Positions 6,769-18,081 of a stretch of DNA of 64,000 nucleotides are shown piece by piece. How positions within the stretch are numbered: the stretch's first letter is position 1; each line of letters begins with the position of its first letter. Origin of the DNA: Chloroflexota bacterium (GTDB taxonomy: Bacteria; Chloroflexota; UBA11872); assembly GCA_022826485.1 (NCBI GenBank), contig JAJDUU010000018.1, forward strand, positions 1 through 64,000, in the 5' to 3' direction. Below the pieces are notes generated by a model. It was not told the DNA's origin, did not search any database, and was given only the letters and a program-made list of their open reading frames with translations. The position numbers and the translations under genes are program-made.

Positions 6769-7668
6769 TCAGACGCTGACGAGCACCAACCCCGCTGCCG
6801 CCAGACCCGCTCCCGCCAGCGTCCCGCGGCTGTGGCGCTCGTGCCAGAGCAGGTAGCCCGCGGCGATGGTGAGCAGCGCGGAGCCGGCGCTCTGGGCGGG
6901 AAACACGATCGTGCCGGGCACGTCGCGCAGCGCCAGCAGAATCAGGACCAACTGGCCCATGTTGACGACGCCGGTCACGACTCCGAGGGCCAGCGGCTCG
7001 CGGAAGAAGCGGCGGCCAAAGCCGAATGACGCGGGCTCGTCGACGGCAACGCGGGGCGCCGGTTGGATGCGTCGCCGCATGACGTAGGTCGCCAGCGCGA
7101 TGGCGGTGGCCGCGGCGAAGGTCGCGGTGGCGTACAGCGGCAGATTCTCGATGGGGGCGACCTCGACGAAGGCCTTGGCGGCGATGAGGCCGGCGCCCGT
7201 GACCGAGAGCGTGCCGATGACCACCGGCCAGTACCACCACACGCGCAGCCGGGCATCCTCGCTGCGGCCGCTGCGCGTGAGCAGTGGCAGCGCGCCGAGC
7301 AGCAGCGCGATGCCGATCAGCGTGGGCGGGTCGGGCCGTTCGCCGAACCACACGATCGAGGCCACGGTGGGCACGATGACGGACATGCGCAACAGCACGA
7401 AGGTGATGCCGACGCCCGTGCGCACGAGCAGCAGATAGATGGCCACGACGGCCAGCGAGAAGCGCGCGCCCTGCACGATCCCCAGCAGCACGGTCGGGGC
7501 GTCCACGGTCGCGGTTCCGGCGACGACCAACCACACGACGCCGATGACCAATCCGGTGGCGTAGTTCGTCCCCGTCATGAGGAAGAAGTCGTAGCCGCGG
7601 GTCTGCGCCCGGCGCAGGGCGAGCGCAAAGCCCACCACGAATAGAATGTGCGCGACGAGATAGCCCAT
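6769..7668 (-). CDS. EamA/DMT-superfamily permease
   Basis: This 299-aa polytopic membrane protein has about ten hydrophobic segments in two repeated halves, the architecture of drug/metabolite transporter (EamA) carriers. The second half ends with FPAQSAGSALLTIAAGYLLW and HERHSRGTLAGAGLAAAGLV, the usual EamA closing pattern. The ATG at 7668 starts directly at the first membrane segment. It is divergent from the gene at 7736, leaving a 67-bp shared promoter region. Substrate unknown; the neighbouring sugar-acid dehydratase suggests a possible metabolite link but no more. Confidence 0.8.
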   Translation of the reverse strand: MGYLVAHILFVVGFALALRRAQTRGYDFFLMTGTNYATGLVIGVVWLVVAGTATVDAPTVLLGIVQGARFSLAVVAIYLLLVRTGVGITFVLLRMSVIVPTVASIVWFGERPDPPTLIGIALLLGALPLLTRSGRSEDARLRVWWYWPVVIGTLSVTGAGLIAAKAFVEVAPIENLPLYATATFAAATAIALATYVMRRRIQPAPRVAVDEPASFGFGRRFFREPLALGVVTGVVNMGQLVLILLALRDVPGTIVFPAQSAGSALLTIAAGYLLWHERHSRGTLAGAGLAAAGLVLVSV

Positions 7669-7735
7669 GGCGTTCGCGGCATGGTCGGCTGCGGCACCGT
7701 GGGTGGCAAACCCCACGCGAGACGGACGGAGCGAC

Positions 7736-8692
7736 ATGGCGAGGTATTTGACCGAAGCTGACGTGGACCGCCTGGCCAACATGGACCTGGCGCTGCGCGT
7801 CGTCGAAGGGTCCTTCGAGCGGCAGGGTCGCGGGACCTCCGCCAATGTCGGGCGCCGTCGGGCGCGGACCGCGCGCGGCGCGCTGCAGCTCATGGGGGCG
7901 GCCGATCCCGATCTGGGCGTCCTGGGCGCCAAGCTCTATCCGAGCGTTCCGGGCGGGGGCATCAGCTTCGTGGTGGTGCTGTTCGACGCGGCCAGCGGCG
8001 CCCTGAGCGCCGTCATGGAGGCGGGGCGCCTGAGCGGGCTTCGCACCGGCGCCGCGAGCGGAGTGTCGGTGAAATACCTGGCGCCGCCGGAAGTCCAAGC
8101 CATCGGGATCATCGGCACCGGCCGGCAGGCGCGGACGCAGCTCGAGGCGGTATGCGCGGTGCAGCCGTTGGCTCGGGTGCGCGTGTTCTCACGCAACCCG
8201 GCGAACGTTCAGAAGCTCATCGAGGAAGTGTCGCCCAAGCTGGCTGCCGACCTGGAGCCGGCGGCCACGGCCGAGGCAGCGGTGCGGGGCGCGCAGGTCG
8301 TCATCACGGCCACCAACGCCGCCGATCCCGTCGTCGAAGTCGATTGGATCGAGCCCGGCGCCCACGTCGTGGCGATGGGCACCAACCACCCGCAGCATCG
8401 AGAGTTGGACAGCGCCGCGATTGCCCGCGCCGACCGCGTTTTCGTGGACGACCTGGAAGGCGCGAAGATCGAATGCGGCGACCTGATCTGCGCCGTCGAG
8501 GACGGGGCCTTCCAGTGGGGCGAGGCGGTCGAGTTCGGCCAGGTGGTGGCCGGTCGCGCGCCCGGTCGAACCAGCCCGGACGAGATCACGCTGTTCGAGT
8601 CGCAGGGCATTGCGCTGTGGGACATCGCGCTCGGCCAGGTCGTGCTCGAACGCGCCCAGGCCGCGGACGTCGGAACTCTCATCGGGGACTAG
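7736..8692 (+). CDS. Ornithine cyclodeaminase/mu-crystallin family protein
   Basis: The protein is 318 aa. It has the N-terminal substrate half (MARYLTEADVDRL, then the RTGAASGVSVKYLA block around residue 105) and a Rossmann domain with IGIIGTGRQARTQL (about 124-137), then FSRNP and DAVFVDD-like DRVFVDDLEGAK. This layout is shared by ornithine cyclodeaminases, alanine dehydrogenases of the Archaeoglobus type and ketimine reductases. A GGAG precedes the ATG at 7736. It ends 19 nt before dop and may be co-transcribed with the pupylation genes. Substrate not determinable. Confidence 0.85.
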   Translation: MARYLTEADVDRLANMDLALRVVEGSFERQGRGTSANVGRRRARTARGALQLMGAADPDLGVLGAKLYPSVPGGGISFVVVLFDAASGALSAVMEAGRLSGLRTGAASGVSVKYLAPPEVQAIGIIGTGRQARTQLEAVCAVQPLARVRVFSRNPANVQKLIEEVSPKLAADLEPAATAEAAVRGAQVVITATNAADPVVEVDWIEPGAHVVAMGTNHPQHRELDSAAIARADRVFVDDLEGAKIECGDLICAVEDGAFQWGEAVEFGQVVAGRAPGRTSPDEITLFESQGIALWDIALGQVVLERAQAADVGTLIGD

Positions 8693-8711: not shown

Positions 8712-10196
8712 ATGAACCGGCCGGTTGGGATCGAGACGGAGTACGGACTCAACTGCGAGGGCTTTGCGGGACCGCCGGACTTCGCATTCGAGTCGGCGAT
8801 GCTGATTCACGCGGCGCCGCTGCCGGTGGCGTTTCGCGGCTGGGACTACACCGACGAGGACCCGCGGCGCGATCTGCGCGGCACTCGGGTCGACGCCCTG
8901 AAGCACGATCCGAACGACCACCTGGGATCCACGGCCCAGAGCTCGCGCATGACGCGCGAAGAGCTGCTGGCCGACACCGTGCTGCTGAACGGCGCCCGGC
9001 TCTACAACGATCACAACCACCCCGAGTACTGCACCGACGCCTGCCGCACCGTGCTCGACTTGGTGGCGCAGGACCGCGCGGGCGAGGCGCTGATGCACGA
9101 GGCCGAGAAGGCCCACAACGAGCGGCTGGACGGGGGCCGCGTACGGCTGGTTAAGAACAACACGGACTACCACGGCCGCAGCTACGGCTGCCACGAGAAC
9201 TATCTGACGCTGCGCGAGGTGCCGCTCGACCACCTGGTTGAGGCGCTGGTGCCCTTTTTGGCGACGCGACAGGTGTTTGCCGGCGCGGGTCGCGTGGGCA
9301 TCGAGGGCGGCGATGCGGGCGCGTTGCAGCTTTCCCAGCGCGCCGACTTCTTCGAAACGGTGGTGGGCATCAACACCACGACCCGGCGGCCCATCTTCAA
9401 CACGCGCGACGAACCGCACGCCGATCGCACCCGCTACCGGCGGCTGCACGTCATTGCCGGCGACGCCAATCGCAGCGAGTGGGCCACGGGCATGAAAGCG
9501 GCCACGACGGCGCTGGTGCTCGACGCAGTCGAGGCCGGCTGGCGGGCGCCCATCCGGCTGCGCGATCCCGTGGCGGCGGTCCAGCAGGTCTCCCACGACC
9601 TCACGCTGGGCGCGGGCATCGAGCTCGACGACGGTCTCAATGTTTCGCCGCTCGACATCCAACGGTGGTGGCTGAGTGCCTGCGAGCGCTTCCGCGGCCG
9701 CGACGCCGAGACGGACTGGGTGCTCGACGAGTGGGATCAGGTGCTGACCGAATTGCGCGCCGATCCAGCGGCCGTAGCGGATCGGGTGGACTGGGCAGCC
9801 AAGCTGGTGCTCCTGCGGGATCTCGGCCCGGCGCCGGAGGCGGCGCGACGCCTCGACTTCGCGTATCACCTGCTGGACCCAAGCCTCAGCGTGCATCAAT
9901 GGCTAACCGATCGCGGGCGCATGCGCACGCTGGTGACGCCGGCACAGGTTGAGGAAGCCCGCACCACGCCGCCGTCAGGCACCAGGGCCACCGTGCGCGG
10001 CCGGCTGCTGGCCAAGTTCGGTCCGGCGATCACGGCCATGGAGTGGGACCGGGTGCACTTGCACCGCAATGGCGTTAACGTCACGGTGCGGCTGCCCGAG
10101 GTTGCGGGACCCGAGATCGACCGGCTCAGCGCCCTGGTTGAGAAATGCGCCACCATTGATGATGTAGTAGCCGCGCTTGACGCCGAAGGAGGATGA
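8712..10196 (+). CDS. dop: Dop, Pup deamidase/depupylase
   Basis: This 494-aa protein is of the glutamine-synthetase-like Pup ligase/deamidase family. The ATP site opens with GIETEYG (residues 6-12). A Dop-specific loop follows: RGWDYTDEDPRRDLRG (about 42-57) and further polar residues to about 82. This loop is absent from the second family member at 10386, which is what separates Dop from PafA. The catalytic segment LLNGARLYNDHNHPEY (91-106) carries the nucleophilic Asp region, followed by KNNTDYHGRSYGCHENY and NTRDEPHAD. Dop deamidates Pup-Gln and removes Pup from targets. AAGGAGGA at its end serves as the ribosome-binding site of pup, 3 nt downstream. GGAG precedes its own start. Confidence 0.93.
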   Translation: MNRPVGIETEYGLNCEGFAGPPDFAFESAMLIHAAPLPVAFRGWDYTDEDPRRDLRGTRVDALKHDPNDHLGSTAQSSRMTREELLADTVLLNGARLYNDHNHPEYCTDACRTVLDLVAQDRAGEALMHEAEKAHNERLDGGRVRLVKNNTDYHGRSYGCHENYLTLREVPLDHLVEALVPFLATRQVFAGAGRVGIEGGDAGALQLSQRADFFETVVGINTTTRRPIFNTRDEPHADRTRYRRLHVIAGDANRSEWATGMKAATTALVLDAVEAGWRAPIRLRDPVAAVQQVSHDLTLGAGIELDDGLNVSPLDIQRWWLSACERFRGRDAETDWVLDEWDQVLTELRADPAAVADRVDWAAKLVLLRDLGPAPEAARRLDFAYHLLDPSLSVHQWLTDRGRMRTLVTPAQVEEARTTPPSGTRATVRGRLLAKFGPAITAMEWDRVHLHRNGVNVTVRLPEVAGPEIDRLSALVEKCATIDDVVAALDAEGG

Positions 10197-10199
10197 GCA

Positions 10200-10373
10200 A
10201 TGAACATCACGTGGCGGTCGGTGCCGCTGGACGAGGTCGAGGCGCCGCCCGATCCGGCCAAGACGGTTCCCGACGAAGAGACCACGCCGGCGGAGGACGA
10301 CGACTTGGGCGAGCACGTCAGGCGCATCATTCGTGAAATTCCGGATCCGACGCCGCAGCCCGGCGGGGAGTAG
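10200..10373 (+). CDS. pup: Pup, prokaryotic ubiquitin-like protein ending in Gly-Gly-Glu
   Basis: This 57-codon gene lies between dop and pafA. It starts at ATG 10200, six bases after a strong AAGGAGGA. The peptide is acidic and proline-rich, with no aromatic core after Trp5. It contains AEDDDLGEHVRRIIREIPD (residues 31-49), a plausible ATPase- or enzyme-binding helix, and ends TPQPGGE. Pups are about 60-70 aa, intrinsically disordered and end GGQ or GGE; the C-terminal Glu side chain is joined to target lysines by PafA. Here Glu is encoded directly, so deamidation is not needed for ligation. Outside the helix and the C-terminus it resembles actinobacterial Pup little. Position and C-terminus make the call secure. 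Confidence 0.9.
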   Translation: MNITWRSVPLDEVEAPPDPAKTVPDEETTPAEDDDLGEHVRRIIREIPDPTPQPGGE

Positions 10374-10385
10374 TCCTCCCGCTCG

Positions 10386-11879
10386 ATGAAGGACGCGCTG
10401 TTCGGCACCGAGATCGAGTACGCCAGCGCCGGCGAGTTTCCGCCCTCGCGGGCCGCGACGATGGTCAAGAACGTGATCTTCGCGGAGCGCCGCTTCGGGA
10501 TCATCGACCCGGCGCCCCGGGAATGGGACGAGGCGCCGGGCAACGGCGGGTTCCTGTTCAACGGGGCCCGCCTCTACCTGGACTCGGGCCACATCGAGTA
10601 CGCGACGGCCGAGTGCCGCACGCTGGACGACATCGTGGAGCAGGAGAACGCGGCGGACGCCGTCCTGCTGGACGCCGTGGAGAGCCAGGAGCTGAATCGC
10701 CGCCTGTTCTTCATCAAGAACAACACCGACTACCTGGGAAACACCTTCGGCTACCACGAGAACTACGCCGTGCGGCGCAGCCCCCTGAGCCTGGACATGG
10801 CCGCCGGGCTGATGCCGTTCCTGACCACGCGCCAGCTCTACGCCGGCGCCGGCATGACCATCACCGACCGGGACAACGGCGGACTGCCGTTTCACATCTC
10901 GCAGCGGGCGGCGTTCGTGACCATCGACATGAGCCAGCGCGTGCGCTTCGGCGGCCGGCCCATCGTCAACTTGCGCGACGAGCCGCTGACCGAGGAGGCC
11001 GGGCTGCGGCGGCTGCACGTGATCGTGGGCGACGCCAATCGAAGTGAGTTCGCCACGGCGCTCAAGATCGGCTCGACCGCGCTGGTCGCCCAGCTGCTTG
11101 AGGGTGGCTGGAATCCCGATCTCGTGCTGCTGGCGCCGGTGCAAACGCTCAAGGAGATTTCAAGCAATCCCGCCGGTCCGTGGTCGGTCGAGTTGGCGGA
11201 TGGCCGCAACATGCCGGCGCTCGACGTCCAGCGGATGTATCACGCTGCCGCCGACCGCGCCTTCCGCGGGCGCGACAGCGACACTGATTGGACCCTGGAC
11301 GCCTGGGCCGAGTGTCTGGACGGCCTCGAGCGCGATCCGACGACGCTGGTGGGCAAGGTCGATTGGATCACCAAGCTCGAGCAGCTGCGCCGCTTCGCCG
11401 AGGACTCACCGGATGGCTGGGCGGACCCCGAGCTCGTGAAGGTGGATCTGGCCTACCACCACATCGACCCCACGGTGAGCATCTTTGCCGAGCTGCAGCG
11501 GCGGGGCGTCGCCCCGCGCCGCACGCGGGGCGACGTGAATCCGCTGGCCGTGCCCTCGGGAACGCGGGCGCGCGCCCGCGGCCGCATCGTGCGGGCGCTC
11601 GTGGAGGCGCAGGCCGACTCGCTCATCGATTGGAAGGACGTGCACCGCAACCTTGGCGCGCTGACGAACTGGAACGACCAGCTATTCCTCGTCTACCAGT
11701 ACATCGAGGACTGGCACGAGCTCGACGCCTACGGGGGCTGGGACGTCATCCCCTACCTGATCGACTGGACCGGCATCGGGGTTCGCGGGAAGCTCTGTGA
11801 GCTGCCCAATCCCTTCGAAAGCTACACCGCCGCCGCGGAGGAGTTCGCCGACAAGCTGGGCGGATACCTGCGCCCTTAG
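10386..11879 (+). CDS. pafA: PafA, Pup-protein ligase
   Basis: This 497-aa ligase couples the Pup C-terminal Glu to lysines of target proteins using ATP. It starts MKDALFGTEIEYAS and lacks the Dop loop. The active-site region is LFNGARLYLDSGHIEYATAE (57-76), with the expected NGARLY.D and EYATAEC. Further family blocks are KNNTDYLGNTFGYHENYA, PFLTTRQLYAGAG, NLRDEPL, RRLHVIVGDANRSEFAT and the C-terminal DLAYHHIDPTVSIF. It starts 12 nt after pup, so dop-pup-pafA is a tight operon. No proteasome alpha or beta gene and no Mpa/ARC ATPase gene is adjacent. The gene ends convergently, overlapping the MarR gene by 4 nt. Confidence 0.93.
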   Translation: MKDALFGTEIEYASAGEFPPSRAATMVKNVIFAERRFGIIDPAPREWDEAPGNGGFLFNGARLYLDSGHIEYATAECRTLDDIVEQENAADAVLLDAVESQELNRRLFFIKNNTDYLGNTFGYHENYAVRRSPLSLDMAAGLMPFLTTRQLYAGAGMTITDRDNGGLPFHISQRAAFVTIDMSQRVRFGGRPIVNLRDEPLTEEAGLRRLHVIVGDANRSEFATALKIGSTALVAQLLEGGWNPDLVLLAPVQTLKEISSNPAGPWSVELADGRNMPALDVQRMYHAAADRAFRGRDSDTDWTLDAWAECLDGLERDPTTLVGKVDWITKLEQLRRFAEDSPDGWADPELVKVDLAYHHIDPTVSIFAELQRRGVAPRRTRGDVNPLAVPSGTRARARGRIVRALVEAQADSLIDWKDVHRNLGALTNWNDQLFLVYQYIEDWHELDAYGGWDVIPYLIDWTGIGVRGKLCELPNPFESYTAAAEEFADKLGGYLRP

Positions 11880-12581: not shown

Positions 12582-12914
12582 ATGGCGATGGGTTGGACAG
12601 TCGAGACTCTGAGTGCGGTCGTCGATGGTGAACTTGACGCTCTGCCGGCCGACATGCGGGCGCGGTTTGTGCGGATATGCGAGTTGATCGCGGCCGTCGG
12701 GCTGTACCGCGTTGGCGCACCGCACGTTAGGCACTTGCCGGGCGCGCTATGGGAAATGCGACTGCGTGGTAAGGACGGAATCGCGCGGGCGCTGTATGTC
12801 ACCGTCCGAGACCGGCGAGTCGTCGTGGTGCGGGCCTTCGTGAAGAAAACGCAGAAGACGCCGCGCCGGGAGATTGATCTGGCGCTGCGGCGCGCCAGGG
12901 AGGCATGGCGATGA
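12582..12914 (+). CDS. higB: RelE/HigB-like toxin (Gp49 family)
   Basis: The protein is 110 aa. It has LPADMRARFVRICELIAAVG, then HVRHLPGALWEMRLRGKDGI with ARALYVTVRDRRVVVVRAFV and the closing KKTQKTPRREIDLALRR. This is the same Gp49-like toxin fold as at 1346-1693, with the conserved W-E-(M/V)-R strand, the (V)RAF.KKT(Q)K(T)P end and a central Arg. ATG 12582 or 12588 (MGWTVETL) could be the start; neither has a clear ribosome-binding site, and the promoter -10 lies immediately upstream. Its stop overlaps the antitoxin start. First module of the TA island. Confidence 0.86.
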   Translation: MAMGWTVETLSAVVDGELDALPADMRARFVRICELIAAVGLYRVGAPHVRHLPGALWEMRLRGKDGIARALYVTVRDRRVVVVRAFVKKTQKTPRREIDLALRRAREAWR

Positions 12915-13201
12915 GCAACGTTCGCGACCTGCACAAGAAGTGGCGGCAGGACCCGGAATACCGCCAGGCCTACGACGAGCTTGGTCCAGAGTTCGAGCTT
13001 GCCCGGGTGCTGATCGAGGCTCGATCTAGCGCCGGGCTCACGCAGGCTCAACTCGCCGAGCGCATGCAGACGACGCAATCGGCCATCGCCCGGCTGGAGA
13101 GCGGACGTGTTCAACCCTCGACGCGAACGCTGGAGAAGATCGCACGTTGCACGGGCACCCGCCTCAGAATCAGCTTCGAGCCAACCGGCGCCTCGGTCTG
13201 A
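12911..13201 (+). CDS. higA: XRE antitoxin (HigA-like)
   Basis: This 96-aa helix-turn-helix protein has the core LIEARSSAGLTQAQLAERMQ, TTQSAIARLESGRVQPSTRT, LEKIARCTGTRLRISF. That is a textbook XRE fold followed by a short beta strand. ATG 12911 overlaps the toxin stop as ATGA; the earlier ATG at 12905 would add two residues. It is the antidote and autorepressor of the preceding toxin, probably through the palindrome at 12559-12574. It ends convergently, 11 nt from the end of the VapC gene. Confidence 0.87.
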   Translation: MSNVRDLHKKWRQDPEYRQAYDELGPEFELARVLIEARSSAGLTQAQLAERMQTTQSAIARLESGRVQPSTRTLEKIARCTGTRLRISFEPTGASV

Positions 13202-13211
13202 CCGCGATTCT

Positions 13212-13598
13212 TCAGGCCGCCTCGACGTCGGTTTGCGCGAAGTCCTCGCCCTTGAACAGCAGCGGCTCGCGCGCCGTCTCCGCCAGCGCATAGCTGAAAC
13301 AGTCGCCAAAGTTCAGTCCGGCCGGGTGGTTGCCCTTGCCAAATCGCCGCCAGGCCTGTCGGGCGGCCCGCGCCTGGTCCGGCGTGACCGAGACCAGCTC
13401 CATTCCGGCTCGTTTTAGAAAGACATCGAGCGCATGGCCGCCAGCTGCCCCGCCGCGGCTCTCAGCGACGATTGCCGTCTCAAGAAAACTCGCCGCCGAC
13501 ATTCGGCAGCTTGAGGCGCGCCCAATGGCCCTGGCATAGCGCGCCGCATCCGGCTCGGCGAACAGCACCGCCAGCACCGCCGAGGAATCGACGATCAC
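13212..13598 (-). CDS. vapC: VapC-type PIN-domain ribonuclease toxin
   Basis: This 128-aa PIN domain begins MIVDSSAVLAVLFAEPDA with the first acidic residue (Asp4). A Glu lies in MSAASFLETAIV (about residue 40), and the distal acidic cluster is in HPAGLNFGDCFSYALA (Asp about 98) with LLFKGEDFAQTD (Asp about 119). All the expected catalytic acids are present, so an active tRNA- or rRNA-cleaving toxin is expected. Its ATG overlaps the VapB stop by 4 nt. Confidence 0.9.
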   Translation of the reverse strand: MIVDSSAVLAVLFAEPDAARYARAIGRASSCRMSAASFLETAIVAESRGGAAGGHALDVFLKRAGMELVSVTPDQARAARQAWRRFGKGNHPAGLNFGDCFSYALAETAREPLLFKGEDFAQTDVEAA

Positions 13599-13852
13599 TT
13601 TGGCAGGCCTCGCTCGTCATAGAGCAAGTCGCCGTGGTCGACGGCGGAGGGGCCTGGGCCGAGCAGCTTGGCGCAGCGTTCGCCGATGGCTTGCAGGTCG
13701 CGAGCCACCGCATCCGCTTGACGCTCGCGTTGCTCGCGGCGCAAACGCTCCTCCAGCGCAACCGTGATCGCACCGGTCATGGTCTCGCCCGTCAGCTGCG
13801 CCAACTCGCGCGCCAGCCGGCAGGTTTCCTCGTTCTTGATGTTGAGGCTCAT
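13595..13852 (-). CDS. vapB: VapB-type antitoxin (PSK/VapB family)
   Basis: The protein is 85 aa. It begins MSLNIKNEETCRLARELAQL, then TGETMTGAITVALEERLRRE. This is the ribbon-helix-helix N-terminus of the VapB family that pairs with PIN toxins of the VapC group. The C-terminal tail (GDLLYDERGLPK) ends with the xYDxxGLPK motif commonly seen in these antitoxins, which docks into the toxin active site. GGGA precedes the ATG. The inverted repeat at 13866-13892 is the probable operator. Confidence 0.9.
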   Translation of the reverse strand: MSLNIKNEETCRLARELAQLTGETMTGAITVALEERLRREQRERQADAVARDLQAIGERCAKLLGPGPSAVDHGDLLYDERGLPK

Positions 13853-13865
13853 CGAGGTCCCTTAG

Positions 13866-13892
13866 GGTAGAAGCGCAGGGATTGTTTCTACC
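13866..13892. promoter_or_regulatory. Inverted repeat upstream of vapB, candidate VapBC operator
   Basis: GGTAGAA and TTCTACC are perfect 7-bp arms with 13 bp between them, 14 bp upstream of the vapB start. Centres of the arms are 20 bp apart, about two helical turns, fitting two ribbon-helix-helix dimers on one DNA face. Confidence 0.5.
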
Positions 13893-13936
13893 ATGCGCCG
13901 TGGGCCGTTGTCACGCGCCGTCGTGGAGGTGGAGAC

Positions 13937-14623
13937 ATGGCCCACACTGAGTCACAGACTGGACCAAACGCACAGAACGGTTCTGCCGCACACGCTATGA
14001 TAATAGAGATAGTAAAAAGAAGTAGAAGAACTCTAAGGGCGCGGATGAACTTTCAAATCGGAGGCACACGCTATGCAATCACGCGAGAAGAGGTCATAGC
14101 CGCCACGCGGGATGTCCGGCCCAATCCTGCTGACGCCCGGCACAAGTACTTCGTAACCCTGCACGGACAGCAGCACCCAATTAAACAAGTCATTGAACTG
14201 GTAACCGGTCTTGCGCCGTCCGAGTTCACAGCCGGGACACAGTACGCCTACCGAATCCTCAGCAGGCTCGGCTTCGAAATCTCGGAGCGACCGGACTTGA
14301 GGGAATACGGTGCGCCGGCGCCCGCGCGCACGGCGGACGTTCACGCCGCAGAGCCGTCTCCGGAAGCGACTTTCGCCGTGGATGTGCCCGGGGCCGGCCA
14401 GGACGTCCTGAATCTGCTGGTGGTCTTCGAGCGCGACGAGGATGGCTGGGAGGTGGCGAGCTGTCCCACGCTTCCGGGCTGCCACAGCCAAGGACGCACC
14501 AGGGACGAGGCGCTGGCCAACATTCGCGAGGCCATTCGAGGCTATCTGGCAAGCATGCGTGAGCACGGCGCCCCGTTGCCCGCTTCATCCGAGTTTCAGG
14601 TCCTCGAAGTGCCCGTTGCCTAG
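13937..14623 (+). CDS. hicB: HicB-family antitoxin with an N-terminal extra domain
   Basis: This 228-aa protein is about three times the usual HicB length. The C-terminal part from about residue 155 is a HicB fold: LNLLVVFERDEDGWEVASCP, LPGCHSQGRTRDEALANIRE, AIRGYLASM. The N-terminal part has ITREEVIAATRDVRPNP, HKYFVTLHGQQHPIKQVIEL, YRILSRLGFEI. That layout resembles the small N-terminal domains of ScoMcrA-like modification-sensing proteins; this comparison is by memory and weak. GGAGGTGGAG precedes ATG 13937. An alternative start at ATG 14045 follows an AT-rich stretch with TATGATAAT. HicB normally blocks HicA and represses the operon. The gene overlaps hicA by one base. Confidence 0.82.
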   Translation: MAHTESQTGPNAQNGSAAHAMIIEIVKRSRRTLRARMNFQIGGTRYAITREEVIAATRDVRPNPADARHKYFVTLHGQQHPIKQVIELVTGLAPSEFTAGTQYAYRILSRLGFEISERPDLREYGAPAPARTADVHAAEPSPEATFAVDVPGAGQDVLNLLVVFERDEDGWEVASCPTLPGCHSQGRTRDEALANIREAIRGYLASMREHGAPLPASSEFQVLEVPVA

Positions 14624-14844
14624 TGGCGCGCCTTCCCGTCATTTCGGGCGACGAGTTCGTGAAGGCGGTCGCCAAGATTGGGTTCGTCCGAGACCGTACC
14701 CAGGGCAGCCACATGATTCTGATCGGGCTGGCAGGCCGCCGGCTCTCGGTCCCTCGACACCGGGAACTTGGTCGAGGCTTACTGCGGGCGCTGATCCGCG
14801 ACGCCGGCCTGACACGCGATGAGTTCCTTCGGCTTCTGCGGTAA
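14623..14844 (+). CDS. hicA: HicA mRNA interferase toxin
   Basis: The protein is 73 aa with GTG start at 14623 sharing a base with the hicB stop. It has the dsRBD-like HicA fold: ISGDEFVKAVAKIGFVRDRT, then QGSHMILIG with the catalytic His in GSH, and LSVPRHRELGRGLLRALIRD. Length and motifs are typical, so the toxin appears intact. The order antitoxin-toxin is the reverse of the more common hicA-hicB order. Confidence 0.92.
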   Translation: MARLPVISGDEFVKAVAKIGFVRDRTQGSHMILIGLAGRRLSVPRHRELGRGLLRALIRDAGLTRDEFLRLLR

Positions 14845-14923
14845 GCGCGGGCGGTTGCCCGGTCTGCGGGCAGCCAAGGAGCGCACGGTGTTCCGAGGCA
14901 GATGACGACGCCTCCCCAGGTGG

Positions 14924-14940
14924 TCATACTTAAGTATGAT
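14924..14940 (+). promoter_or_regulatory. Operator palindrome with embedded -10 of mazEF
   Basis: TCATACTTAAGTATGA (14924-14939) is a perfect 16-bp palindrome. Its right arm contains TATGAT (14935-14940), a good -10 only 6 bases before the mazE ATG, implying a leaderless or nearly leaderless transcript that the antitoxin would shut off by covering the -10. Confidence 0.6.
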
Positions 14941-14946
14941 ATCGGT

Positions 14947-15183
14947 ATGAAAGTCGCTATCTCGCTTCCCGACGAGCTCTTTGAGTCCGCCGACGAGCTG
15001 GCGGAGACGCTGGGCATGTCCCGCAGCGAGTTGTATGCCAACGCCGTCGCGGAGTACTTCGCCAAGCATCGGGACCAGGACATTACGACTCGGCTCAACC
15101 GGGTCTACGGCGAGCAGCCGAGCGGTTTCGCGCCCGAGCTCAGGCAGGCGCAGGGGCGCAGCCTCACCGCCGACGAGTGGTAG
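14947..15183 (+). CDS. mazE: MazE-like ribbon-helix-helix antitoxin
   Basis: This 78-aa antitoxin starts MKVAISLPDELFESADELAE and continues TLGMSRSELYANAVAEYFAK, a ribbon-helix-helix DNA-binding domain. A disordered C-terminal tail follows (LRQAQGRSLTADEW), usual for MazF-binding. ATG 14947 is chosen over an in-frame codon at 14902 because the palindrome and -10 lie between them and the domain begins here. It overlaps mazF by 7 nt. It acts as antidote and autorepressor. Confidence 0.88.
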   Translation: MKVAISLPDELFESADELAETLGMSRSELYANAVAEYFAKHRDQDITTRLNRVYGEQPSGFAPELRQAQGRSLTADEW

Positions 15184-15521
15184 TCCAGCGAGGCGAGGTT
15201 TGGTGGGCGGATCTGGCAGAGCCCCGCGATTCGGAGCCAGGGTTCCGGCGTCCGGTTCTCGTCATGCAGGCCGACTCTTTCAACCGCAGCCGCCTGCGTA
15301 CGGTGATCGCCCTGGCGCTTACGACGAACATGCGCCTGCTCGACGCCCCTGGCAACGTCCTAGTCCCTGGTGCGGCCGTGGGCCTTCCCAGGGATTCCGT
15401 GGCCAACGTGACCCAGGTCGTGACGCTGGATCGAGACTTTCTGGTCGAAAGGGCGGGCCAAGCTCCAAGCCGGCTGCTCTCCCGGATCGCAGCGGGTCTG
15501 CGCCTGATTCTCGATCTGTAG
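15177..15521 (+). CDS. mazF: MazF/PemK-family mRNA endoribonuclease toxin
   Basis: The protein is 114 aa, starting at GTG 15177 inside the end of mazE. The fold signature is RGEVWWADL, then RRPVLVMQADSFNRSRLRTV, IALALTTN and the NVTQVVTLDRDFLVER block. The basic and Thr/Ser residues of MazF active sites are retained (R24/R25-P and T-x-N-like positions), so it is probably active. It cleaves mRNA at short specific sequences that cannot be predicted here. Confidence 0.92.
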   Translation: MVVQRGEVWWADLAEPRDSEPGFRRPVLVMQADSFNRSRLRTVIALALTTNMRLLDAPGNVLVPGAAVGLPRDSVANVTQVVTLDRDFLVERAGQAPSRLLSRIAAGLRLILDL

Positions 15522-15629: not shown

Positions 15630-15905
15630 ATGGGCATTACCTATTCAACCTATGAGGCCAAGGCGCGCTTCGCCGAGGTCATGCGGCAGGTGCGCGAGGG
15701 GAAGACGGTCACGGTCTCGTACCGTGGCGAGCCGGTCGCCGAGATCCGACCGATTCAGCCGGAGCCGGCCACCATCGAACAGCGGCTGGAGGACCTCGAG
15801 CGGCGCGGCGTCCTGGTTCGATCGAGCCTGTCGCGCCGCCCGTTGCCAGTGGTGGCCCGGCGCGCCGGCGCTCTGGATCGATTTCTCACCGAGCGCAACC
15901 GGTGA
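15630..15905 (+). CDS. Phd/YefM-family antitoxin
   Basis: The protein is 91 aa. It starts MGITYSTYEAKARFAEVMRQ and continues VREGKTVTVSYRGEPVAEIR, the Phd/YefM DNA-binding fold with its characteristic G-x-x-V-A-x-I/L end. The C-terminal half (ALDRFLTERNR) would wrap the toxin. It is paired with a PIN toxin through a 4-nt overlap. No ribosome-binding site is seen, consistent with a leaderless start from the promoter at 15600-15622. Confidence 0.9.
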   Translation: MGITYSTYEAKARFAEVMRQVREGKTVTVSYRGEPVAEIRPIQPEPATIEQRLEDLERRGVLVRSSLSRRPLPVVARRAGALDRFLTERNR

Positions 15906-16282
15906 ACGTCGCCTACGTCGACGCGTCGGCGCTGGTCGCCGTCGCGTTCGGCGAAGCGTCAGGCTCGGCGATTGCCGGGCGTCTCGACGGGTGCTCGCGC
16001 CTGCTCGCCTCGAATCTCCTCGAGGCCGAGCTGCGGTCAGTGTTCGCGCGCGAGCGCCTTGACTTCGCGGCGAGCCTGGTGGCCGGCATCGAGTGGATCC
16101 TGCCGGATCGCCCGCTAGCGCCCGAGATGACGGCCGTACTCGAATCCGGGGACCTGCGAGGCGCCGACCTGTGGCACGTGGCCACAGCCCTCTACGCCAC
16201 GCCCGAGCCCGGCCAGGCCGCATTCATCACGGCCGACACGCGCCAACAAGCTGTAGCGGCAGCACTCGGCTTCGAGATCTGA
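15902..16282 (+). CDS. vapC: VapC-type PIN-domain toxin
   Basis: This 126-aa PIN domain starts at GTG 15902. The first acid is in MNVAYVDASALVAVAFGE (Asp7). A Glu lies in SNLLEAELRSVFA, then Asp in LRGADLWHVATAL and Asp in AFITADTRQQAVAA. All four positions expected of an active VapC are present. It is the last gene of the TA island and is followed by fabZ. Confidence 0.9.
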   Translation: MNVAYVDASALVAVAFGEASGSAIAGRLDGCSRLLASNLLEAELRSVFARERLDFAASLVAGIEWILPDRPLAPEMTAVLESGDLRGADLWHVATALYATPEPGQAAFITADTRQQAVAAALGFEI

Positions 16283-16889: not shown

Positions 16890-18081
16890 GGAGACCTTTG
16901 AATAATTGGGGCGGGAGCGCATGGAGAGGGGCATCGGCCCCTCTTGGAGGCCCCTGCGGTGGTCGGGCGGGCGGGCCGGCGCGGGATCCCCGGCCGCAGG
17001 ACCCTGCGCGCGGCGCACGGGTCCCGCGGTCAACTCGCCGCCCAGGCCAAGGTGTCCGCTTTGCGCAGGTTGTAGGCCATGAGCTTGAACCACAACTCCA
17101 CCGTGTTGCGCCCCACCCCGCGGTAGCGGACGCGGTGGTAGCCATAGCTGCGCTTGAGGGTGCCGAAGACCTTCTCCACCCACGCCCGCTGGGGGGCAAT
17201 CCAGGCGTTGCGCTGCTGCTGCCAGTCGGGCAGCTCCGGCTGATGCTTATGCGCCCGATGCATGATCCGATCCTCGATCCCCTGCTCCCGCAACCACTGC
17301 CGCCGCCGCTTGGACTCATACGCCCGGTCGCCGGACACCGCCTGCTCATCCCCGCTCACCAACGCGTCGGCCACCTCGCTCTCATAGACGTTGGCGGGGG
17401 TCAACACCGCCCGCCGCACCAGCAGCGTGTGCTCATCCACCCCCAGATGCACCTTGTAGCCGAAGTGGGAGCGGGCGCCCCGCCCGGTCTGGGTCCACGC
17501 CGCCTCGGGATCGGTGGCGCTCGGCGCGCCCCGCCCCGCCGCCAGCGGCGGGCGCCGCACCTGGGCCGCCACCAGCGTGGCGTCCAGCAGCGTGCCCTCC
17601 TTCAGCACCAGCCCCTGCGCGTCCAGTTGCGCCGCCAACTCCCGAAACAACGGCGCGCTCAGCTCCTGGACCTCCAGCGCCTGCCGAAAGCGGCTGATCG
17701 TCGAGTGGTCCGGCGTGGCGTCCTCCAAGCTCAAGCCCACGAAGCGGCGGAAGGAGAGCCGATCCCCCAGGGCCTCTTCCAGCTGCGGGTCCGAGAGGCC
17801 GTACCACTGCTGCAGCAGCAGCGCCTTCACCATCAGCAGCGGCGGATAGCTGGGCCGCCCGCGGGCGGCGGCGTGCACGCCCGCCACCACTTGCGCGAGC
17901 CGCTCCCAGTCCACCGCGTCGTCGATCCGCTCCAGCCGCTGGTTGTGGCCGAGGGACTCCGACACCATCGCTTCCGCGAACGACGGTCGGCCCATATCCC
18001 GGTGCATACGCCCGCTCCTCACTCCTCCGCCTGGCGACGCCCCATGGTCCGCCCCGCCCCTCGATTTATGCAAAGGTCTCC
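16890..18081 (-). mobile_element. IS5-family insertion sequence, complete
   Basis: The element is 1192 bp with one transposase gene. Terminal inverted repeats begin GGAGACCTTTGAATAA at the left end and GGAGACCTTTGCATAA read inward from the right end, 15 of 16 matching. A 4-bp target duplication CTTC flanks it. A member of the IS5 family with intact ends and an intact reading frame is probably still mobile. It lies between fabZ and the dehydrogenase gene without breaking a CDS. Confidence 0.88.
17030..18007 (-). CDS. IS5-family DDE transposase
   Basis: The protein is 325 aa from ATG 18007, which has GAGGAG eight bases upstream; the frame stays open further but without that signal. The N-terminal domain has GRPSYPPLLMVKALLLQQWY, GLSDPQLEEALGDRLSFRRF and DATPDHSTISRFRQAL, typical of IS5 transposases. 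Catalytic residues fall in LLDATLV (Asp), VSGDRAYES (Asp) and RAWVEKVFGTLKR (Glu). The frame is uninterrupted, so the enzyme is presumed active. Confidence 0.95.
   Translation of the reverse strand: MHRDMGRPSFAEAMVSESLGHNQRLERIDDAVDWERLAQVVAGVHAAARGRPSYPPLLMVKALLLQQWYGLSDPQLEEALGDRLSFRRFVGLSLEDATPDHSTISRFRQALEVQELSAPLFRELAAQLDAQGLVLKEGTLLDATLVAAQVRRPPLAAGRGAPSATDPEAAWTQTGRGARSHFGYKVHLGVDEHTLLVRRAVLTPANVYESEVADALVSGDEQAVSGDRAYESKRRRQWLREQGIEDRIMHRAHKHQPELPDWQQQRNAWIAPQRAWVEKVFGTLKRSYGYHRVRYRGVGRNTVELWFKLMAYNLRKADTLAWAAS

Follow-up and report, generated by a model that had tools for sequence, protein, structure and literature searches.

A Pup-type modifier very probably encoded between dop and pafA in a class of Chloroflexota

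The short open reading frame at positions 10200-10373 of the window (the whole 64,000-nucleotide stretch of Chloroflexota DNA that was analysed) is a real gene, and it very probably codes for a Pup-type modifier, i.e., the tag of a pupylation system in which PafA would ligate the tag and Dop would remove it. We read it as a substrate of Dop and PafA because it is encoded between the genes for both enzymes and its C-terminal residue is only ever Glu or Gln. A conserved three-gene cassette, selection at the protein level, a terminus restricted to these two residues and the catalytic residues of both enzymes are directly seen in the genomes of the class. No partner ATPase or 20S proteasome pair was recognised in addition to the enzymes and the tag in these genomes, a stronger point than the encoded GGE end and one that the original prediction had not raised.

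The frame between dop and pafA and its conservation

The frame runs from ATG to TAG over 57 codons (peptide MNITWRSVPLDEVEAPPDPAKTVPDEETTPAEDDDLGEHVRRIIREIPDPTPQPGGE). It is exactly as originally described, including the encoded C-terminal Glu of its last residues, PTPQPGGE. It starts 3 bp past the dop stop codon and ends 12 bp ahead of the pafA start codon. A Shine-Dalgarno sequence is found 7 nt upstream of the start; as it overlaps the end of dop, translation of dop and pup is likely to be coupled. The features of the locus are the following.

8712-10196, + strand: dop, depupylase/deamidase homologue of 494 aa with the Dop loop (RGWDYTDEDPRRDLRG...); PF03136, 475.8 bits
10186-10192, + strand: Shine-Dalgarno sequence AAGGAGG of pup, overlapping the end of dop, from the sequence; kept within the genus
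10200-10373, + strand: pup, very probable Pup-type modifier of 57 aa, C-terminus ...RIIREIPDPTPQPGGE; from sequence and conservation
10305-10337, + strand: pup codons 36-46, LGEHVRRIIRE, predicted to be helical when joined to Dop and disordered alone
10338-10370, + strand: pup codons 47-57, IPDPTPQPGGE, proline-rich tail that is almost invariant and ends in Glu, or in Gln in some genera
10386-11879, + strand: pafA, Pup ligase homologue of 497 aa without the Dop loop; PF03136, 349.8 bits

Dop and PafA are present in 39 of the 41 genomes of the little-known host class, a set that includes record UBA2235 and consists mostly of draft MAGs. The gap between the two genes holds the tag frame with its GG[E/Q] end in all 38 Dop/PafA genomes in which it could be assessed. 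An apparent lack of pup in genome G008 (L021/L045) was traced to an assembly N gap and was rejected as a loss. The original prediction had staked its case on conservation of the frame and of the GGE end in close relatives; the frame persists there, and GGE is kept in six of six genomes of the genus. Throughout the class the tag shares the ending RI[IV]RE.P.PTPQPGG[E/Q], with a terminal Glu in 24 genomes, Gln in 14 and no other residue. Genomes of the sister genus encode GGQ, as do those of three further genera, and at least three switches between Glu and Gln are required on the Dop+PafA tree. The start, the N-terminal length and the size of the gap vary, giving tags of about 47-75 aa, and there is one copy of the family per genome.

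Pairwise dN/dS values of pup within the genus range from 0.07 to 0.26. When the last 16 codons of the 38 genomes were compared with those of the window, 272 codon differences were synonymous and 25 non-synonymous (23/2/291 differences at the first, second and third codon positions), the synonymous share expected for random single changes being 26%. The last column alone, where 14 of the 38 genomes have Gln, accounts for over half of these 25 differences. The tag is under strong purifying selection at the protein level. A chance open reading frame might be expected in an intergenic gap that is GC-rich and short and that holds open frames on both strands, but the conservation of this one across the class, with change almost only synonymous, led us to reject that origin, the probability of which we regard as negligible.

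No neighbour besides dop-pup-pafA itself is conserved across the five families. A gene of the ornithine cyclodeaminase/mu-crystallin family (7667-8692), which ends about 20 bp before dop in the window, adjoins dop in both genera of the host family, and none was seen in the other families. Judging from isolate naming and from a report that the related UBA11872 is known only from corals and sponges (PMC10608941), many members of the class appear to be sponge-associated MAGs. One record, L054, is titled Thermoflexus hugenholtzii JAD2 and has the dop-pup-pafA of the class, with a Pup identical to that of G033; it is probably mislabelled.

Dop and PafA homologues

Both enzymes match the Pup_ligase family model PF03136 at the scores given above and have the invariant catalytic residues. 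In Dop, the catalytic Asp100 and Glu8/Glu10 are invariant; PafA also keeps the N-terminal Glu pair, and its catalytic Asp66 aligns with Asp64 of Corynebacterium glutamicum PafA. The functions of the catalytic Asp and of the Glu pair are presumably those known for the family. With the NCBIfam models, the top-ranked model was the expected one for each gene, yet neither reached its equivalog cut-off: Dop scored 404.5 bits with TIGR03688 (cut-off, 492.3), and PafA scored 279 bits with TIGR03686 (cut-off, 551.3). Among solved structures, Dop (PDB 5lrt/4b0r) matched the window Dop at about 346 bits and PafA (4b0t) matched the window PafA at 216.7 bits. The predicted structure of the window Dop superimposes on solved Dop with a Z score of 51.7 and an rmsd of 1.9 over 440 residues. 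In a tree with actinobacterial references, C. glutamicum PafA could not be placed because of long branches. A third PF03136 protein (486-aa frame, 210.6 bits) is found in G029 (L128:5653-7113), apart from the dop-pup-pafA cassette, and no GG[E/Q] frame was seen beside it.

In known pupylation systems, a tag that ends in Glu is activated at this residue and ligated by PafA, and Dop both converts a terminal Gln to Glu by deamidation and takes the tag off again (PMC7947786, PMC3511204). That PafA could use a GGE tag without deamidation, as had been proposed, follows from this established mechanism. The accompanying proposal that Dop, which has its loop, serves mainly for depupylation is a reasonable one and fits the retention of Dop in all GGE genomes; the same had been argued before for C. 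glutamicum (PMC3511204). A reading of Dop as a depupylase only is limited by the sister genus and the three other GGQ genera, in which deamidation by Dop is needed because Gln is encoded. The original prediction also expected the gene to be missing from most annotations of related genomes; the collections searched here carry no annotation, and the gene has no match among the family models.

The chemistry of pupylation, the docking and the read-out of the tag, which we infer from sequences, would be as follows. The tag would be a small, mostly disordered modifier. The glutamate encoded at its C-terminus would be phosphorylated on the side chain by PafA and joined to lysines of target proteins, and Dop would cleave the tag-lysine bond again, after having deamidated the tag beforehand in the GGQ relatives. 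Docking on both enzymes would probably be through a short amphipathic helix formed by residues 36-46, and the stiff tail PDPTPQPGG would thread the glutamate into the active site.

Likeness of the tag to known modifiers

The original prediction saw little similarity to actinobacterial Pup, and the searches bear this out: the Pup models of Pfam and NCBIfam matched none of 24 tag members at E<=10, and PF05639 matched nothing in the host genome. A search of the tag profile against solved structures returned only chance matches, and plasmid records searched with mycobacterial Pup gave no match. As a family-model match is lacking, we call the protein Pup-type by its locus and terminus and not as a shown member of PF05639. 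It has in common with Pup that it is a short protein ending in Gly-Gly-Glu/Gln (38 of 38 genomes) and that it is encoded beside pafA and dop.

Like the Pup of Mycobacterium and Corynebacterium (PF05639), the tag is small and predicted to be disordered, its gene adjoins pafA, Glu and Gln alternate between species at its GG[E/Q] end, and it is accompanied by a Dop and a PafA with their catalytic residues. The differences lie in the sequence before the terminus and in the locus. The C-terminus of mycobacterial Pup is EDFVRAYVQKGGQ / LLDEIDDVLEENAEDFVRAYVQKGGQ, whereas the tag of the window, which lacks the second helical stretch, has one short helix segment followed by IPDPTPQPGGE, so that the proline-rich PDPTPQPGG occupies the place of EDFVRAYVQK. 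The genes dop, pup and pafA are contiguous here, without prcBA and without a recognised ATPase. A close parallel in other respects is pupylation in C. glutamicum, where GGE is also encoded, Dop is also retained for depupylation and a 20S proteasome, of which no pair was recognised here, is absent (PMC3511204). An encoded terminal Glu, being the same in that species, is ordinary and not new in itself.

Another group of divergent Pup-type modifiers outside Actinobacteria that are easily missed in annotation is UBact of Nitrospirae and other phyla, which has the C-terminus R[T/S]G[E/Q] and whose gene is accompanied by those of a proteasome and an ATPase. From this general description of UBact, as opposed to an alignment of sequences, the tag differs by ending in QPGG[E/Q] in 38 of 38 genomes and by having neither a proteasome nor an ATPase recognised with it.

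AlphaFold2 predicted the tag alone to be disordered (mean pLDDT, 60.9; pTM, 0.14). For a joint model with Dop, the stop codon of dop was translated as Trp, the dop and pup frames being in register. In this model residues 36-46 of the tag are helical, with a mean pLDDT of 79 for the block, compared with 34-37 for the linker and less than 50 for the last four residues. Alignments of the joint model with the PafA-Pup and Dop-Pup structures end at Dop, and no docking pose could be read from them. The helix in the joint model, which came without coordinates or an error estimate between the parts, is consistent with folding upon binding and does not prove it.

The short protein could instead be a small regulator or inhibitor that sits in the groove by which Dop and PafA bind Pup, with the real Pup encoded elsewhere. 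It lies in the operon, binding to the same enzymes would be expected of it, and homology to known Pup is lacking. However, that the last residue is either Glu or Gln, and switches between these two only, is understandable in a substrate of PafA and Dop but not in an inhibitor, PF05639 has no match elsewhere in the genome, and the tag family is single-copy in each genome. We therefore hold a regulator or inhibitor to be very improbable and retain the Pup-type modifier.

Probable tagging without a recognised ATPase or proteasome pair

The Mpa/ARC model TIGR03689 exceeded its cut-off in none of the 41 genomes of the class, and no 20S proteasome pair was recognised in them; in the host genome, none of the Mpa/ARC and 20S models exceeded its cut-off, so the Mpa/ARC ATPase and 20S alpha/beta that make up a Pup-proteasome system were not found there. 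These absences rest on HMMs at the stated cut-offs, by which diverged partners could be missed, and mostly on MAGs. The proteasomal ATPase OB domain PF16450 had no match in the host genome and matched in C. glutamicum and archaea as controls; a borderline match lies in a 447-aa frame in two genomes of another family. The host genome has 18 AAA matches, some of which were identified individually; the large AAA proteins scanned were FtsH-type, Lon and ClpB/ClpC-type, none being CDC48 or PAN. Neither partner was recognised in the single-contig 3.0-Mb genome G018 (L044) either.

PF00227 exceeded its cut-off in three of the 41 genomes, with one protein each. In G013 and G011 (L081, L082) this is a single 247-aa protein (41 and 38 bits), which had no NCBIfam match in G013 and is possibly an orphan proteasome-fold peptidase. 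G029 (L077:1297-3459) has a CDC48-family ATPase (TIGR01243, 933.8 bits); no TIGR03689 match comparable to the one of G029 (over 200 bits) was found in the other 40 genomes.

The system might nevertheless feed the normal degradation route, with an Mpa/ARC and a 20S proteasome whose sequences have diverged beyond the reach of the models or that fall in assembly gaps. This would oppose an uncoupling of tagging from the proteasome and leave the Pup-type identity of the tag untouched. The partners could have diverged as Dop and PafA have, both of which fall short of their NCBIfam equivalog cut-offs, and most of the genomes are draft MAGs. Yet PF00227 matched proteins of the proteasome fold in 10 of the 14 genomes used as controls and only the three single proteins in the class, the best TIGR03689 matches outside G029 reach at most about 153 bits and those examined are FtsH-type, PF16450 is absent from the host genome although ARC-bearing C. 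glutamicum matches, and the single-contig G018 also lacks the ATPase and the 20S proteasome. Hidden partners of this kind seem unlikely to us. We lean instead towards class-wide pupylation that lacks both an Mpa/ARC unfoldase and a 20S proteasome and uses a diverged tag of its own, in a free-standing reversible tagging cycle or with another protease. With neither Mpa/ARC nor paired 20S subunits recognisable in these genomes, the tag would then act as a reversible signal or be read by a housekeeping protease. This would go a step beyond C. glutamicum, in which ARC is kept although the proteasome is missing, as it is, according to a 2012 review, in proteasome-free pupylation genomes generally (PMC3511204); no ATPase of this type was recognised here in 41 genomes.

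If so, protein tagging in bacteria would be separable from proteasomal degradation, and the minimal dop-pup-pafA cassette would offer a natural system in which to study a signalling role of Pup alone. As current models miss this Pup-type family, surveys based on HMMs would undercount pupylation. Of 400 Chloroflexota genomes, 39 have Dop/PafA and 38 have the tag, with all convincing matches of the tag profile inside the host class and no Dop/PafA in the 359 genomes outside it. The scans covered Chloroflexota, and the tag may also occur in other phyla. Literature searches on pupylation or Dop/PafA in Chloroflexi returned nothing relevant, and Chloroflexi are not named in a 2020 survey of Dop and PafA (PMC7947786).

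Past pafA and a MarR-type gene, several type II toxin-antitoxin pairs lie in a row in the window (12582-15521), namely, RelE-like Gp49/XRE, PSK_trans_fac/PIN, HicB/HicA and RHH/PemK-MazF, and likely a further PIN-like pair at 15630-16282. Beyond these pairs, a 347-aa frame on the minus strand (17030-18073), judged by eye, is likely an IS-type transposase.
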